Assembly (NCBI GenBank): GCA_031278855.1
Contig: JAITJR010000082.1
Span: 1 to 10,051, forward strand
Source: Mycoplasmataceae bacterium
Lineage (GTDB): Bacteria > Bacillota_I > Bacilli_A > Mycoplasmatales > Mycoplasmoidaceae
Length of the DNA stretch: 10,051 nucleotides
Reading direction: 5' to 3'
The first letter of the stretch is position 1. Each line of letters begins with the position of its first letter. This document shows positions 1,971 to 10,051 of the stretch, piece after piece. Made by a program: the position numbers and the translations under genes. The notes under the pieces are model-generated. The model saw only the letters and a program-made list of their open reading frames with translations, was not told where the DNA came from and ran no database searches.

Positions 1971-2703
1971 TATTGGCCTCTTTCATATTCTTTCTGTTTT
2001 TGTAAAGTTTGTTTTTCTTCATGATTGTGCCGAAGACATTCTTTTCTATCTAAATGAACATCAGATTGCTCTCTAACTAACTTTAATAATGCAGGATATT
2101 TCGCACTATCTTCATAAAAATCAATTAACTTATTGATATATTCAACATTATCGGTAATTTGAATAATTGAAATATTTTTTTCATTAAACAAAGGTTTGCA
2201 AAACACAGTGCAGTTCTCTTATTTCCGTTTGGAAATAATTGCTGCTTACATAAATCAGATAACATTTTCACTCCATCATCAAATGAATTAACACTATTCA
2301 TTCTTTTTAAAACGAAAGATTCAGAATCTTTAATCTCTAATACTTTAGGTTTATGAAAAGAACCCTTAATGTATGCTTGATTAGTTCTTCACTTCCCAGC
2401 CTCATCTTCTTCGTAACCATCTAATAGTTTATTAATCTGCTTAATGTCGTATAGATAAACATCTTGATCGTCATTAGCTCTATTAATAATATATTGATAC
2501 GCTCTTTTTAAACCAACAATAATTTGTGTTTTATCAAAATCTATTTTATTTTTAGATTGCTCATAATTATTGACAATGTTATAAGTTTCAGCAAAAGTAA
2601 TCCCTTTATCTTCAATTTTTGCTGCTTGGAAAATCATTTCCACAAAATACTTGTGAGCAACTTTTATTTGTTCATTTTTATATTTTTTTGCTTTATTATT
2701 CAT
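1970..2703 (-). pseudogene. fic: Fic-domain protein split at an A7 tract
   Basis: Read through one TGA (Trp105) and one frameshift this gives about 244 residues of a Fic-type fold. Fic enzymes usually move AMP or a related group from a nucleotide onto a target protein. Evidence is the helical block LKRAYQYIIN (65-74), AGKWRTN--YI-GS-HKP (102-119), and the core LFPNGNKRTALCFANL (156-171). In the core the catalytic His of HPFxxGN(G/K)R is Gln155 and the acidic position is Asn159. After Met174 lies a run of seven A residues (plus-strand T run 2175-2181). The opening frame then ends at a TAA at 2127-2125 (192 aa). One extra A, or a -1 slip, joins a second frame ISIIQITDNVEYINKLIDF that runs to the TAA at 1972-1970. 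GGAGAG precedes the ATG. Decay, phase variation, slippage and sequencing error are all possible. Confidence 0.75.
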
Positions 2704-5496: not shown

Positions 5497-6729
5497 ATGA
5501 AGAAAAATAAAAAGATTTATTGCACATTAGGATTAATTATGACACCATTACTTACTGTTGGTGTTGCTGGACCAATAATTGCTTGTCATTTGAATAATAC
5601 CGCTGTAAAATCAACCACTACCATCAGTATCAATACTGTAATACCTGCAAACACTAGTATTGGGGAAATTCAAATTGTTGATGGTCTTACTGCTCCTACA
5701 GAAAAACAAATATTAGGCACAATCAATGTTTGAATTGCAAGTCAATCAGCTGAAACAAAAGCAAAATGACACATTAATCAAGTTTATTGCAACGATATCC
5801 AAACTGGAGGTTGTAAGATTCTTGTACAATCATGGTCGCCAGATTATGATACATCATCATATACTAACGTAGTCTATTCTACGAAAACACCGACACAAAA
5901 AAAGTCTTTAAGGGAAGCACTAACTGGTAGTTCGACTGGAACAGATGCTGTAATTTTAAACAATATTAGTAGCGGTAGCGGAGGTGGAACGTTTGATACT
6001 TGATTAAAGACACAAAATGCTACTAACATAAGTTCTCTTAAAGGAGACAACAAAAAAACAGCACTTTTACGTTGGTTGGATAATAGCAATTTATATAATA
6101 ATGGCTTACACATTAACCAAATTGATGTAACTACTCCATTAAGTTGAGACGCCACCAATAATCAATATTCTTTTGTCATCAATGCTAAAAGTGGATCAAA
6201 TATTTATACAAATGATTCACTAACAGTAGCTTTTAAAGTTGGTCGAATTAATATAAATGGCATCTCAGATTTAACTAAAAGATTATCTTTTGTAATTACT
6301 CCTAGTACACAAGAAATTTATAGTCAATTTACTTATGTAAACAGTACTAAAATAACATCAACTAATTTACCATTTGAGAATTTTGATTTTACAAGCCTTA
6401 CAAAAGATGGTGTAACTTTTACTGTTAATGGTAACGAATATTATGAAACTAGTACAGGTGTAACACTATCATGATCTGCTACTGAACCTGTTGCATTATC
6501 AACTGTAATAAGCAGTACTGATTTAGGTGCTTTACCTGAAGATCCACGTGATCATGATGACATTAAGTATTTAGTAGGACAAGCAAATTCAAGCTACCCA
6601 ATTGAATGAAACGATATTACAATCGGAGAAATCAATGCTACTAATCATATGGTAGTTTTAACACCAAAAGCTGGTTCGATTTACTATACATCTAATGCAG
6701 TTACTATTACATGGTCATTGCTATCTTAA
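5497..6729 (+). CDS. Surface lipoprotein 1
   Basis: A 410-residue protein with a lipoprotein signal peptide: basic start MKKNKKIYCT, hydrophobic core to residue 29, and lipobox IIA-C with Cys30 as the lipidation site. The mature chain is rich in Ser, Thr and Asn with predicted beta strands. The segment LSTVISSTDLGALPEDP (about 341-357) opens a domain whose TDLGA motif recurs in the next gene. Such domains, with T-LG-L followed by an Ile/Leu-rich helix and VT--I strands, are common in mollicute surface lipoproteins. Trp is encoded by TGA at several places. AGGGG at 5486-5490 supports the ATG. It is likely displayed on the membrane and antigenic; adhesion or nutrient binding is speculation. First gene of a three-gene operon. 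Confidence 0.88.
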
Positions 6730-6754
6730 ACATTAACAATTTGAAAACACACTG

Positions 6755-7711
6755 ATGCTTAAGAATCCATGCGCAAAAAAATTATTTAACATTTTATTTA
6801 TTATCACTGGTTTAATAACAGGATATGTTTTTTGAGGGTTTTTGTTTGGTTGCAGTTCTACTCCCAAAATTATACCTAGTATTGTATTGAGTATTGATCG
6901 TAACCCAACCATTAGTTTTAATTCCACTGCTCATCGTGATGCCACAATTAAATTACAATTTCAAAAAATTAAATTTAGTGAAATATCTATGGTTTACCGT
7001 GATGACATCAAATCCCAATCTGGTTTGACATATAGAAATTTTTTAGAAATAACTATTCCTTCCAATACCGACGATACTGCCGTTATTAATATTTCATTTA
7101 AGAACGATATTCCCGAGTGTGACTTTACTAGTTTTCATTTATATCTACAGGCAGTAAGCAACGACATTAAAAGTAATGAAATTTTCATCAGTGTATTTTT
7201 GGTTCAACAAAATCTAAGTGATATTTTTACCCAAACTGATTTAGGTGCTTTTATCATTTCTCCAACTGAACCCGAAATTTTAAATAAAGCCATCGCCTTG
7301 AATCCTAAATATAATCCCAATGAATTTGATAACGAATCATTAAGTATCATATTGATTAGTAATCAGTCAGCAAAACTATCATGTAGTGATCAAGATTTAT
7401 GAATTGGCGAAGTAACATTGACTTGAACAATCTCAAACACCGAAGATGTGAATGACATAATTAAAGTTACAGATTTATCAGAAGGCGGTACTCATGCTTT
7501 TGTTGAATGGCCATCATTTAGCGATATTATTTGACGTGTCACAGTCTTAAATCCTGAACATACTGAAGCTTGATACAACACTAGTTTTTGGCCTTATGTA
7601 AATTTACAAATTAATGCTGTCGGAACTACACCGCAGGCTACTGTCACTGGCTTGATTCCTCATTGAAAAAATAGCGTTACATTAAGTTTTCTGGTCGAGA
7701 ACGGAGCATAG
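6755..7711 (+). CDS. Surface lipoprotein 2
   Basis: A 318-residue protein. The ATG at 6755 gives a signal peptide with basic start MLKNPCAKK, a hydrophobic core containing a TGA-coded Trp27, and lipobox LFG-C (Cys33). The standard code breaks at that TGA and would wrongly suggest a start at TTG 6842, next to the lipidation Cys. Residues about 155-168 (LSDIFTQTDLGAFI) repeat the TDLGA motif of the preceding lipoprotein. An exact 17-base match (6517-6533 and 7235-7251) points to a related domain. The C-terminal half is rich in Trp and Thr with strand-like alternation. No Shine-Dalgarno is seen in the 25-base gap after the first gene, so it may rely on coupling. Function unknown beyond a surface lipoprotein. 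Confidence 0.85.
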
Positions 7712-7713
7712 TT

Positions 7714-9933
7714 ATGAGAAAAAAGAAAACATGATTATCGTTAGTTATGATTGGTTCCATTGCTGTTTTTCCAATTGTGAATGAAATAGTAAGATCAGAT
7801 GATTCCATTAATAAAACATTAATGACAAGTTCTAGTGATAATGTTAAATTTGATTTAAGTACCTTAACTGGTAATAGTTTAAATGAAACATTTACAAGTC
7901 AACCAAGTAACAATACGTTATTACGTGCTTTTTTTAATCAGTACAAAGACCAAATAGGCGGGACTTATTACAACCAAGTTTTTATTACTAACGATACAGT
8001 AAATAAAGAATTTAGCATAACTGCTTATGATTGAGCTCCCAATGTATCTGGCACTAAGACAAATATTAGTTACATCGTAAACATTACCCCAATTGAGGAT
8101 TTAACCACAATATTTGGAGGTGCCAGTTATACGTTGTATAGCGATCCAACCGAATCTCCTTGGAAAAAAACACCTGCCAAAATGGACTTTATTAACGCCA
8201 TTAAAAGCAAAGCCGAATCATTTGCCGCTATCGACTTCAATCAAATCACTGTTAATCCAGAAAATATGGAATACGACACAAGCAATGAATTGTATTACAT
8301 CACCATAGCTGCTGCTCCAAATTCTAATAAATACGCGGGAAGTGTAAATATTTATTTTGCACTTTATCAAGTTACAATTAATTTTTTAGGGTTAAATTTT
8401 AAATTCGATGCCGACATTAGTGATCAATATTATCCCACTGTCGAAGGGAATGTTATCACCTTAAATTATGATGGCGAATATAATGTGACAGACGATGGTA
8501 CAAATGTAAGCGATCGTAGTATTAACGTTCCTGATAACTATACAAATACGGTAATCAATTTGGTTGGAAATACCATCAATATCAATCCAACTAGTGATGC
8601 AAGTTCAATCACATTGGGTGAGAATACCAATGTAAATATTAGAATTAATGCTCCTTCATTAAATTTCAAAGGGGCTGCTGGATATGCTGGAATAAGAGTC
8701 CCATATTCATCAACATTAACATTAGATGGTAGTTCCAACATTACTTGCACGGGCGGTGCCACTACGACAAGATGTGGAGCAGGGATCGGCGGAGTGGTAA
8801 CAACAGATTCTGGTCCTGGTGGTGATGATTCGATTTTAAACTGTGGAACCGTTAACATCTTGGGAACTGTTTCAGTCACTGCTACTGGTAACGTATCAAC
8901 TGCTTATGACAAAGGTGGTGCATCAACTGGCATCGGTGGGGCTGGATGTTCTTATGGATATGGTGGTAAATGTAAAAAAGTTTATATTGATACAACTGGA
9001 ACGATAACCGCTAAAGGTGGTGGTTATGGTATTAGTACTTATACCTATGGAGGTAGTGCGCCAGGTATAGGTGGTGGTAATGTTGGTAGTTATGATAATA
9101 ACCCAAAATACGGAGGCGATTTAGAAAGTATTGAAATTCATAATGGAACTGTATATGTACAGAACGGAGATTCCAACAAATCTTCAATTGGTTCTGGTTC
9201 AGTAATTGGTGGCGGATCAGTCGCAACTGGAACAGCCACAGCGATGCAAAATACAATGATAGCTGGCTCTTTAAGAAATTTTCTGATGACCGGAGGTACT
9301 TTGATTTGTAAGGAAACTACGACAGCATTTTATAGTTATTGTGGTATTGGAGCAATCATTGGTGGCGGCGGAGTTGTTAAAACTCAATCTGGGAAACCAA
9401 CAGATGCTTCAAATTTCACTAGTGGCGGACTTGATCACATCAATATTTCTGGTGGCAGTATCTATCTGATCAAAAATTTAAATCTTGATGCAACAAAAAA
9501 TGTTAAAGCCACATTGCAAACAGTCGGTAGAGGTTCAATTAATTTTCTAGTGGATAATGCTGTACCATCAGATGCTACATGTCATGGTGGAAGTATTGGT
9601 ACTTTTAAAGTTTCGAATGCTTCGATTTTGATGAATAAATATGTTGTCGACAAACAACCAGTTGACGAAGCTGGACATACGCTTTATCCATGTTATGTCC
9701 CTAATGCTATCAACGGAAATGTTACATCTGGACACACATTAACAATCCCAAGTATTCAGTACACATCAAATCTTGTTAATTTTACCACTTACGATCCCAA
9801 CGCTCAATATAGTGGTGTAATTTATTTACCAATTGGTTCTTATAACGACATCATGATTAACGGTACTACATATCATGCTGAAGTAACTGACATTACCACT
9901 CCAACTGCAACTCATAACATTGTTTTAGCTTAA
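7714..9933 (+). CDS. Secreted glycine-rich solenoid-like surface protein
   Basis: A 739-residue protein starting 2 bases after the previous stop, with GGAG at 7703-7706. MRKKKTWLSLVMIGSIAVFP is a Sec signal or uncleaved anchor and no lipobox follows. Residues about 40-240 resemble the beta-rich modules of mollicute surface lipoproteins. From about 245 to 620 the chain is Gly-, Thr- and Ser-rich with repeated strand-turn units. IGG/IGGG motifs recur at residues 358, 407, 452, 498 and 549, spaced 45-51 residues, with flanking units such as GTVNILGTVSVTATG and GTITAKGGGYGIS. This pattern recalls right-handed beta-helix carbohydrate-binding or adhesin domains of gut Firmicutes and Bacteroidetes. 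Around ten Cys occur in the repeat region. The internal ATG at 8134 is not the start. The stop codon touches 16S rRNA sequence, so the true C-terminus may be altered. Confidence 0.85.
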
Positions 9934-10051
9934 GTTCTCGTAGGGGTACCTTGTTACGACTTAACTCCAATCACCACTCCTACCCTAGACGTTCGCCTCC
10001 TTGCGGTTAGCAAAACGGTTTTAGGTATTAGCGGCTCTCATAGTTTGACGG
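9934..10051 (-). rRNA. rrs: 16S rRNA 3' region, lacking the extreme 3' end
   Basis: The reverse complement reads as the end of a mycoplasmal 16S rRNA: CCGTCAAACTATGAGAG, later GTGATTGGAGTTAAGTCGTA, then ACAAGGTACCCCTACGAGAAC. The universal 1492R site is intact (TACCTTGTTACGACTT, 9947-9962). A normal mollicute gene continues with about 24 more bases, including the 3' strand of helix 45 and GGATCACCTCC. Here the match stops at 9934, right after the AGAA loop of helix 45, and the next bases are the stop codon of the surface protein. No spacer or 23S gene follows to the left. The gene runs out of the window on the right. It is a truncated copy or an assembly junction. Confidence 0.93.

Follow-up and report, generated by a model that had tools for sequence, protein, structure and literature searches.

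Stray 16S rRNA pieces beside accessory genes in Mycoplasmataceae, and their possible origin in gene capture at the rRNA operon

The window analysed here, a stretch of 10,051 bp, is the whole of contig C24 of a draft Mycoplasmataceae genome (G000; 895,118 bp in 111 contigs, 78.9% complete), and it ends in part of a 16S rRNA gene that abuts the stop codon of a putative surface-protein gene. We interpret this part as a genuine, non-functional 16S duplicate, left behind as the rRNA operon repeatedly took up foreign or mobile genes, an explanation to which, taken in full, we assign a probability of roughly 0.64. On the best reading of the comparisons below, the 16S-23S spacer is a hot spot of gene capture, captured genes carry pieces of 16S with them, and the window piece is one such. 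Genomes called close to G000 are close by 16S identity; they form a group that we take to be MAGs of termite-gut Mycoplasmataceae. The recurring pattern is of more interest than the single junction in the window.

The 16S fragment and its neighbours in the window

The fragment, delimited by cmscan and alignment, occupies 9934..10051 on the minus strand and comprises helix 44 with the 5' arm and loop of helix 45. The bacterial SSU rRNA model matches the minus strand at the right end of the window with 79 bits (E = 1.9e-21), and its alignment reaches 9913, the part beyond 9934 being without clear identity. When 9901-10051 served as query, same-genus matches to intact 16S all started at query base 34, which is window position 9934; the last base of the TAA of the open reading frame 7714-9933 is 9933, so the initial annotation had correctly placed the start of 16S identity at the base after the stop codon. 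The 118 nt correspond to positions 1361-1478 of the 1500-nt 16S of genome G006, with 117 of 118 bases identical and the single mismatch at position 1386. At the junction the window reads GAGAAC-TTAAGC, compared with GAGAAC-GTGGGGGTGGATCACCTCCTTT in intact relatives. Judged by features of a functional 16S, the piece has GAGAAC-TTAAGC in place of GAGAAC-GTGGGGGTGGATCACCTCC and lacks a complete helix 45 and the anti-Shine-Dalgarno; the loss of the latter and of the helix 45 3' strand had been noted from the sequence, and it is complete except for the first base of the 3' arm. The helix 45 hairpin forms in the fold of an intact 16S end and is absent from the fold of the window fragment, which still folds at -32 kcal/mol. 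As it stands, the piece cannot work as 16S, and it is probably a genuine, incomplete copy of the 16S 3' part. The contig end at 10051 cuts its 5' side, and the assembly holds 118 nt only.

Sequences resembling Shine-Dalgarno motifs, whose use in the window had been pointed out earlier, precede six of the eight genes inspected by eye, and a normal 16S is therefore expected in the cell. We agree with the initial annotation that an intact copy must exist elsewhere, and infer as much; none is present in the MAG. A second, complete 16S-23S locus did not emerge, since full-model searches of this 79% complete assembly returned neither 16S nor 23S, and a DNA search yielded two further short 16S stretches, on contigs C91 and C95. 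Contig C91 carries a DUF4143 gene, an Mrr gene and then 16S from position 1242 to the contig end, overlapping a stop codon; C24 carries 16S up to 1478 followed by the surface gene; C95 carries a 16S end, spacer, a small ORF, HsdR and HsdM. The stretches on C91 and C24 may belong to a single piece, 1242-1478, of which each is one end, lying between convergent genes with 51 nt unassembled.

The surface-protein gene (7714..9933, plus strand) encodes 739 residues under translation table 4, TGA being read through as Trp in genes of G000, and matches no Pfam family. Truncation of this gene by the 16S piece was rejected on the evidence of homologs that reach the same C-terminus: one on G024:C4 is 69% identical over residues 1-738 and ends in TATDNIVLS, and four others align to residues 736-737. 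Upstream lie two further putative surface or lipoprotein genes of 410 and 318 residues (5497..7711, plus strand), assigned this character by eye, whose homologous DNA lies beside dnaA in G024. There the surface cluster precedes a short ORF, dnaA and dnaN (by Pfam); the next ORF follows the surface gene after 9 bases, and 16S is absent from the place. The earlier wording that a surface locus was inserted into an rRNA operon is accordingly not right; because the G024 cluster adjoins dnaA without 16S, the end of the surface cluster in G000 was reached by a 16S piece or by rearrangement between such pieces. Other window genes (RidA, a permease, RecU), like the surface cluster, form no obvious defence island, which speaks against the capture reading; a Fic/DOC-like gene (2125..2703, minus strand; PADLOC PDC-S04) has a counterpart of the same families beside a 16S piece on G024:C10.

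Two origins of the junction at 9933..9934 had been offered, a fragment made by recombination or a contig chimera, the latter rated a serious possibility. An assembly or library chimera would join a surface contig and a 16S contig artificially at this point, as might happen in a MAG of 111 contigs and 79% completeness when 16S is repeated within a community; the searches made gave no second instance of the junction, and its pattern had 0 matches in the genome contig collection. In the plasmid collection, the sequence from 9934 on gave only rRNA-wide matches of 60-80% identity, and viral contigs gave 0 matches to one 16S 3' pattern, hence no sign of a phage carrier by that single pattern. The 16S stretch, however, is exactly 118 nt long, as expected of a de Bruijn graph at a real, unique junction that leads into a repeated 16S. 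Contig ends of the sister assembly G024 share exactly 119 nt (C7 with C3, C10 with C3, C11 with C10, and C11 with its own start), and the assembly graph therefore had k = 119. If G000 was assembled with the same k, as we infer from the sister MAGs, 118 nt is k-1, the junction 119-mers are therefore probably in the reads, and the stop at k-1 implies that another 16S copy shares sequence up to position 1478. Two contigs with 23S pieces (in G018 and G006) end 119 nt in, which fits one base of chance identity. Other 16S ends of G000 stop 68 nt (C91) and 32 nt (C95) into 16S; these are not explained by k = 119 alone and must have some further origin, for instance strain variation. Pieces of 16S comparable to that in the window, a good many of them diverged, adjoin genes in five other genomes, and one gene-16S junction, with a Fic gene, is common to G022 and G024. 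On the k-1 length and this recurrence, recombination is judged the better of the two options; a chimera is less well supported, and we regard it as quite unlikely.

Recurrence of 16S pieces and the genes beside them

The genus set of 36 genomes, G000 included, was searched with a 1500-nt 16S query, the best 10 candidates per genome being scored, so that the count of pieces is a lower bound. At least 47 places were found: 20 full-length genes, nine 16S starts interrupted by a contig end or no more than a few bases short of one, 16 pieces, a possibly intact 3' end at the edge of contig C95 in G000, and one match of 29 nt at chance level. The pieces, at least 16 with at least one internal junction, come from six of the 36 genomes (seven in G024, four in G006, two in G000, and one each in G022, G021 and G027); two in G024, C10 1181-1405 and C3 1287-1464, are probably one. 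All 16 lie within 16S positions 1136-1500 and measure 56 to 365 nt, often without the 16S 3' end, and some are diverged, at 80-87% identity. Their 5' breakpoints fall at 1136, 1181, 1193-1204, 1242, 1296-1297, 1330, 1348 and 1441, with 1242 recurring beside three different neighbours, and the 3'-truncated pieces, the one in the window among them, end at 1318-1478.

As a control, a tuf query of 1185 nt gave one near-full-length match in 33 of the 36 genomes and nothing comparable to the 16S pieces; the seven remaining matches measured 88 nt (close to a contig start), 105 nt (at 69% identity) and, in the other five cases, 27-35 nt. For 23S, with the best 8 candidates per genome, at least four short stray matches were seen, on G006:C25, on G006:C18 and twice on G018:C23; of the last two, the match at the contig start may belong to an intact 23S that the contig truncates. 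We considered 23S as an equal source and did not retain it, its short stray pieces being fewer; longer partial matches on G011:C6, G030:C7, G034:C3 and G021:C3 were left out of this count. In a survey of 198 genomes of the order, the matches listed outside the genus, the best three per genome, were near-full-length. The best 10 candidates per genome included no stray 16S piece in G009, G028 or G002; in these genomes the 16S processing stem is followed by a sequence that by eye resembles a hairpin with a T-run, and then by other DNA.

Ten of the 20 16S and 23S pieces lie within 500 nt of a DUF4143 ORF, compared with 0.27 expected (Poisson P about 4e-13, a guide only, pieces of one cluster not being independent). 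Split by rRNA, this holds for 7 of 16 16S pieces and 3 of 4 23S pieces; for 16S alone the 7 compare with 0.21 expected (P about 3e-9). DUF4143 matches over the cut-off number 5 in G000, 7 in G006, 6 in G024, 0 in G022, 3 in G021, 2 in G027 and 2 in G018, the expectation having been computed with 3 for G018. Against this stand G033, whose 12 DUF4143 genes are accompanied by no stray 16S piece, and G024, in which only one of six DUF4143 genes adjoins a piece. The flanking families include AAA_14-DUF4143 ATPases, type I restriction and modification proteins (HsdR, HsdM), Mrr, bSEFIR, KAP (PDC-S49), Fic (PDC-S04), a PIF1-like helicase and a helicase-MTES nuclease (PDC-S37), together with a MIP channel, a HATPase protein and several genes without a family. 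Among the genes scanned next to pieces none matched a recombinase family, and the varying 5' breakpoints show no fixed attachment core at the RNA 3' end.

A use for the pieces, with helix 44 acting as a hairpin spacer or putative terminator between convergent genes, is suggested by their placement directly after a stop codon in the window and on G000:C91, by opposite-strand stop codons at 9-105 nt from the pieces of G024:C3, G024:C10, G022:C10 and G006:C7, and by the stable fold of the window fragment. We hold this to be very improbable, given breakpoints that differ from piece to piece and a short gene spacing that is normal in such genomes, as in the 9 nt of the G024 counterpart.

The interrupted spacer and a proposed route of capture

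Nine relatives (G003, G010, G011, G012, G014, G020, G023, G025 and G026) have a plain 16S-23S spacer of 239-347 nt, the 23S of G011 running off its contig, and none of them supplies an empty site at strain level; where the 16S is most similar to that of G000, the genomes have an interrupted spacer. In G033 a RelB-type antitoxin and PIN protein pair lies between 16S and 23S (L055, 10469-11199). G022 has, in order, an intact 16S, a helicase-nuclease gene, a 16S piece and a Fic-like ORF, with its 23S on another contig. On G006:C22 a 16S end and spacer remnant are followed by two DUF4143 genes and a 23S start, and on G006:C28 (L036, 11545-11890) two 16S spacer ends enclose a partial gene for a ribosome-type GTPase (MMR_HSR1; EngB by eye), so that captured DNA includes pieces of ordinary genes. 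When the 567 nt that follow the 16S of G006, the GTPase part included, were scanned with Rfam, only the 16S end matched and no other RNA gene. Promoter-like sequence (TTGACA-17-TATTAT in G024) occurs upstream of the split 23S in G024 and G006, at a count not above chance. The 23S genes themselves carry an insertion of about 0.76-0.82 kb at 23S position 1944/1945 in G033 (L055, 13620-14378) and G024 (L101, 8661-9480), that of G033 encoding a LAGLIDADG endonuclease and thus being an intron-like element; on G021:C3 (27545-29982) the 23S looks patchy, 93% identical in its 3' part and 76-78% in separate upstream stretches.

The most extended arrangement is found in G024. Contig C10 holds, in 5.4 kb, four 16S pieces that overlap in 16S coordinates and share one orientation, and it leads by contig overlap into C3, where bSEFIR, a 16S piece, KAP, methylases and an AAA gene precede the 23S in which the contig ends. 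The start of C10 is a spacer end, reached either from C11 or from the intact 16S on C7, the step from C7 presumably passing through a short missing 16S end. Contig C11 (L040, 1-9886), of 9.9 kb, has AbiH as its first gene and carries a PIF1-like helicase before 16S 1242-1500 and spacer. An identical 119 nt of spacer stands at either end of it; 16S 1242-1500 precedes the right copy, and a correspondingly longer copy presumably exists on the left. A single contig order for G024 was dropped, C11 overlapping itself as well as C10. C11 may be a circular or tandem cassette; it lies either between 16S and C10, for about 25 kb in all, or apart as a circle or tandem, for about 15 kb in the operon. The overlaps thus place 15-25 kb of defence and accessory genes, with interspersed 16S pieces, between 16S and 23S.

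The edge of the spacer looks sharp. Ten spacer ends were compared (two on G006:C28, the second shared with C29, and those of G006:C30, G033, G019, G022, G000:C95, G024:C11, G024:C10 and G024:C3); all run to ACTT(G) and then differ, nine sharing GAGNGNACTT(G) and G024:C3 having AATAGGACTTG. What they share is the outermost part of the long stem in which 16S leader and spacer pair, at -41 to -46 kcal/mol in the three genomes folded, and insertions at this boundary therefore leave 16S maturation untouched. The sharpness could reflect selection preserving the processing stem in intact copies. The best evidence for the boundary is the pair of G024 copies that are identical over 119 nt up to it and have different genes beyond. 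In two 3'-complete pieces, on G006:C22 and G021:C11, the spacer is lost ahead of the stem; the piece on G006:C7 is without spacer.

Comparison of all 16 pieces with intact 16S genes, site by site for 8 of the 16, shows that two resemble the 16S of another species more than their own. The piece on G006:C30 has the G022 state at 10 of 12 sites derived in G022 and the G006 state at none, although nine of the ten fall within 20 alignment columns and may be one event. The piece on G022:C10, a contig that also carries the resident 16S of G022, agrees with G006 at 5 of 6 sites derived in G006, and at 15 informative sites it has the G006 state 12 times and the G022 state twice. G006:C30 could be misbinned; G022:C10 could not be so explained in that simple way. 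Of the remaining six pieces compared, four are closest to the 16S of their own genome, and G021 and G027 are without a 16S of their own. Separately, 23S 5' matches ending at 254-256 adjoin related DUF4143 ATPases on G018:C23 (L104) and G006:C25 (L103), with 95% identical DNA over 1452 nt of the ATPases, and the longer 23S match on G018:C23 is identical to the G024 23S at 250 of 251 positions and to G018's own at 212 of 253. G018:C23 was set aside as proof of transfer between species, G018 and G021 sharing a sample label and misbinning being possible.

These arrangements suggest the following route. New genes (DUF4143 ATPases, restriction-modification, Mrr, SEFIR, KAP, Fic and toxin-antitoxin genes) would join the 16S-23S spacer at one end, immediately beyond the pre-16S processing stem, and at the other end a point in the last quarter of 16S, so that the sequence from that point to the spacer becomes duplicated. 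Repeated insertion would build an array of 16S, spacer, genes, 16S piece, genes, 16S piece and so on to 23S. Homologous recombination between the shared 16S pieces could then move genes within a genome and between species and would strand pieces elsewhere, in the window at the stop codon of the surface gene. Insertion with a long, variable target duplication is a plausible initiating event that fits the 5' breakpoints and the repeated spacer; the window shows one side of such a duplication. Homologous recombination is a likely dispersal step because the pieces form direct repeats and some carry foreign 16S states. The 3'-truncated pieces, the window's included, would need a second event, whether a deletion, a second insertion into the piece, or recombination between pieces. 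The window piece would have arisen by this route as well, and its present locus may lie within or outside the rRNA operon.

Passive decay offers a simpler account, in which ordinary insertions and deletions broke up an extra rRNA operon, or several, and left remnants with no role in gene movement. It finds support in the 80-87% identity of some pieces, in G010 and G012, where a complete 16S is accompanied by a second 16S start at a contig end, and in the capture of ordinary gene pieces. We nevertheless think it unlikely: the four overlapping pieces of G024:C10 in one orientation point to several duplicates rather than one broken gene, the 16 pieces represent the 3' quarter of 16S only, the enrichment beside DUF4143 genes is strong, and two pieces carry 16S states of another species. 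Within the capture reading, a bolder and rather doubtful proposal is that the rRNA operon serves as an open platform, where defence or selfish genes insert with 16S (and 23S) tags whose conservation would allow a cassette to enter the rRNA loci of another species by recombination, with no dedicated integrase; the cassettes would circulate, perhaps in circular form, for which G024:C11, whose two ends coincide over 119 nt, is a candidate, and the tag in the window would have landed outside the array.

Relation to known systems

If gene capture at the rRNA operon is the right reading, rRNA sequence itself acts as the tag by which accessory genes are mobilised, and a bacterium can live with 15-25 kb of such genes and defence genes separating its 16S from its 23S. 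Short 16S pieces, which one might readily put down to contamination or chimerism when they turn up in a genome or MAG, can then be real and can derive from other species, with consequences for 16S-based quality control, copy counts and strain assignment. A literature search over titles and the starts of abstracts returned no description of 16S pieces flanking accessory genes, nor any paper on defence islands at an rRNA-operon integration hotspot.

Genomic islands at RNA genes, for example those at tRNA sites, place accessory genes beside a structured RNA gene of which the 3' part is repeated. Here too, accessory genes adjoin an RNA gene with repeated pieces of its 3' part; unlike such islands, the present arrangement shows no recombinase among the genes scanned, and its pieces vary from 56 to 365 nt with no fixed attachment core. 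A further parallel comes from restriction-modification systems, for which the work of Nobusato and colleagues reportedly concerns Helicobacter. Insertion of such a system with a long, variable target duplication was inferred from genome comparison (Nobusato et al. 2000, as cited in PMC3031569). As described in the relevant part of PMC3031569, the restriction-modification genes come to lie between long, variable direct target duplications and are amplifiable by recombination between the repeats, which the pattern reported here resembles; it differs in that the target is the 16S 3' end with the spacer, modules stack in an array, and genes other than restriction-modification genes are common. The unlinked rRNA genes of symbionts (PMC7761764) are similar in that 16S and 23S are no longer adjacent in host-associated bacteria. 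That source gave no match for "inserted", "truncated" or "Mycoplasma"; relative to the symbionts it describes, the separation seen here holds accessory genes with repeated 16S pieces.
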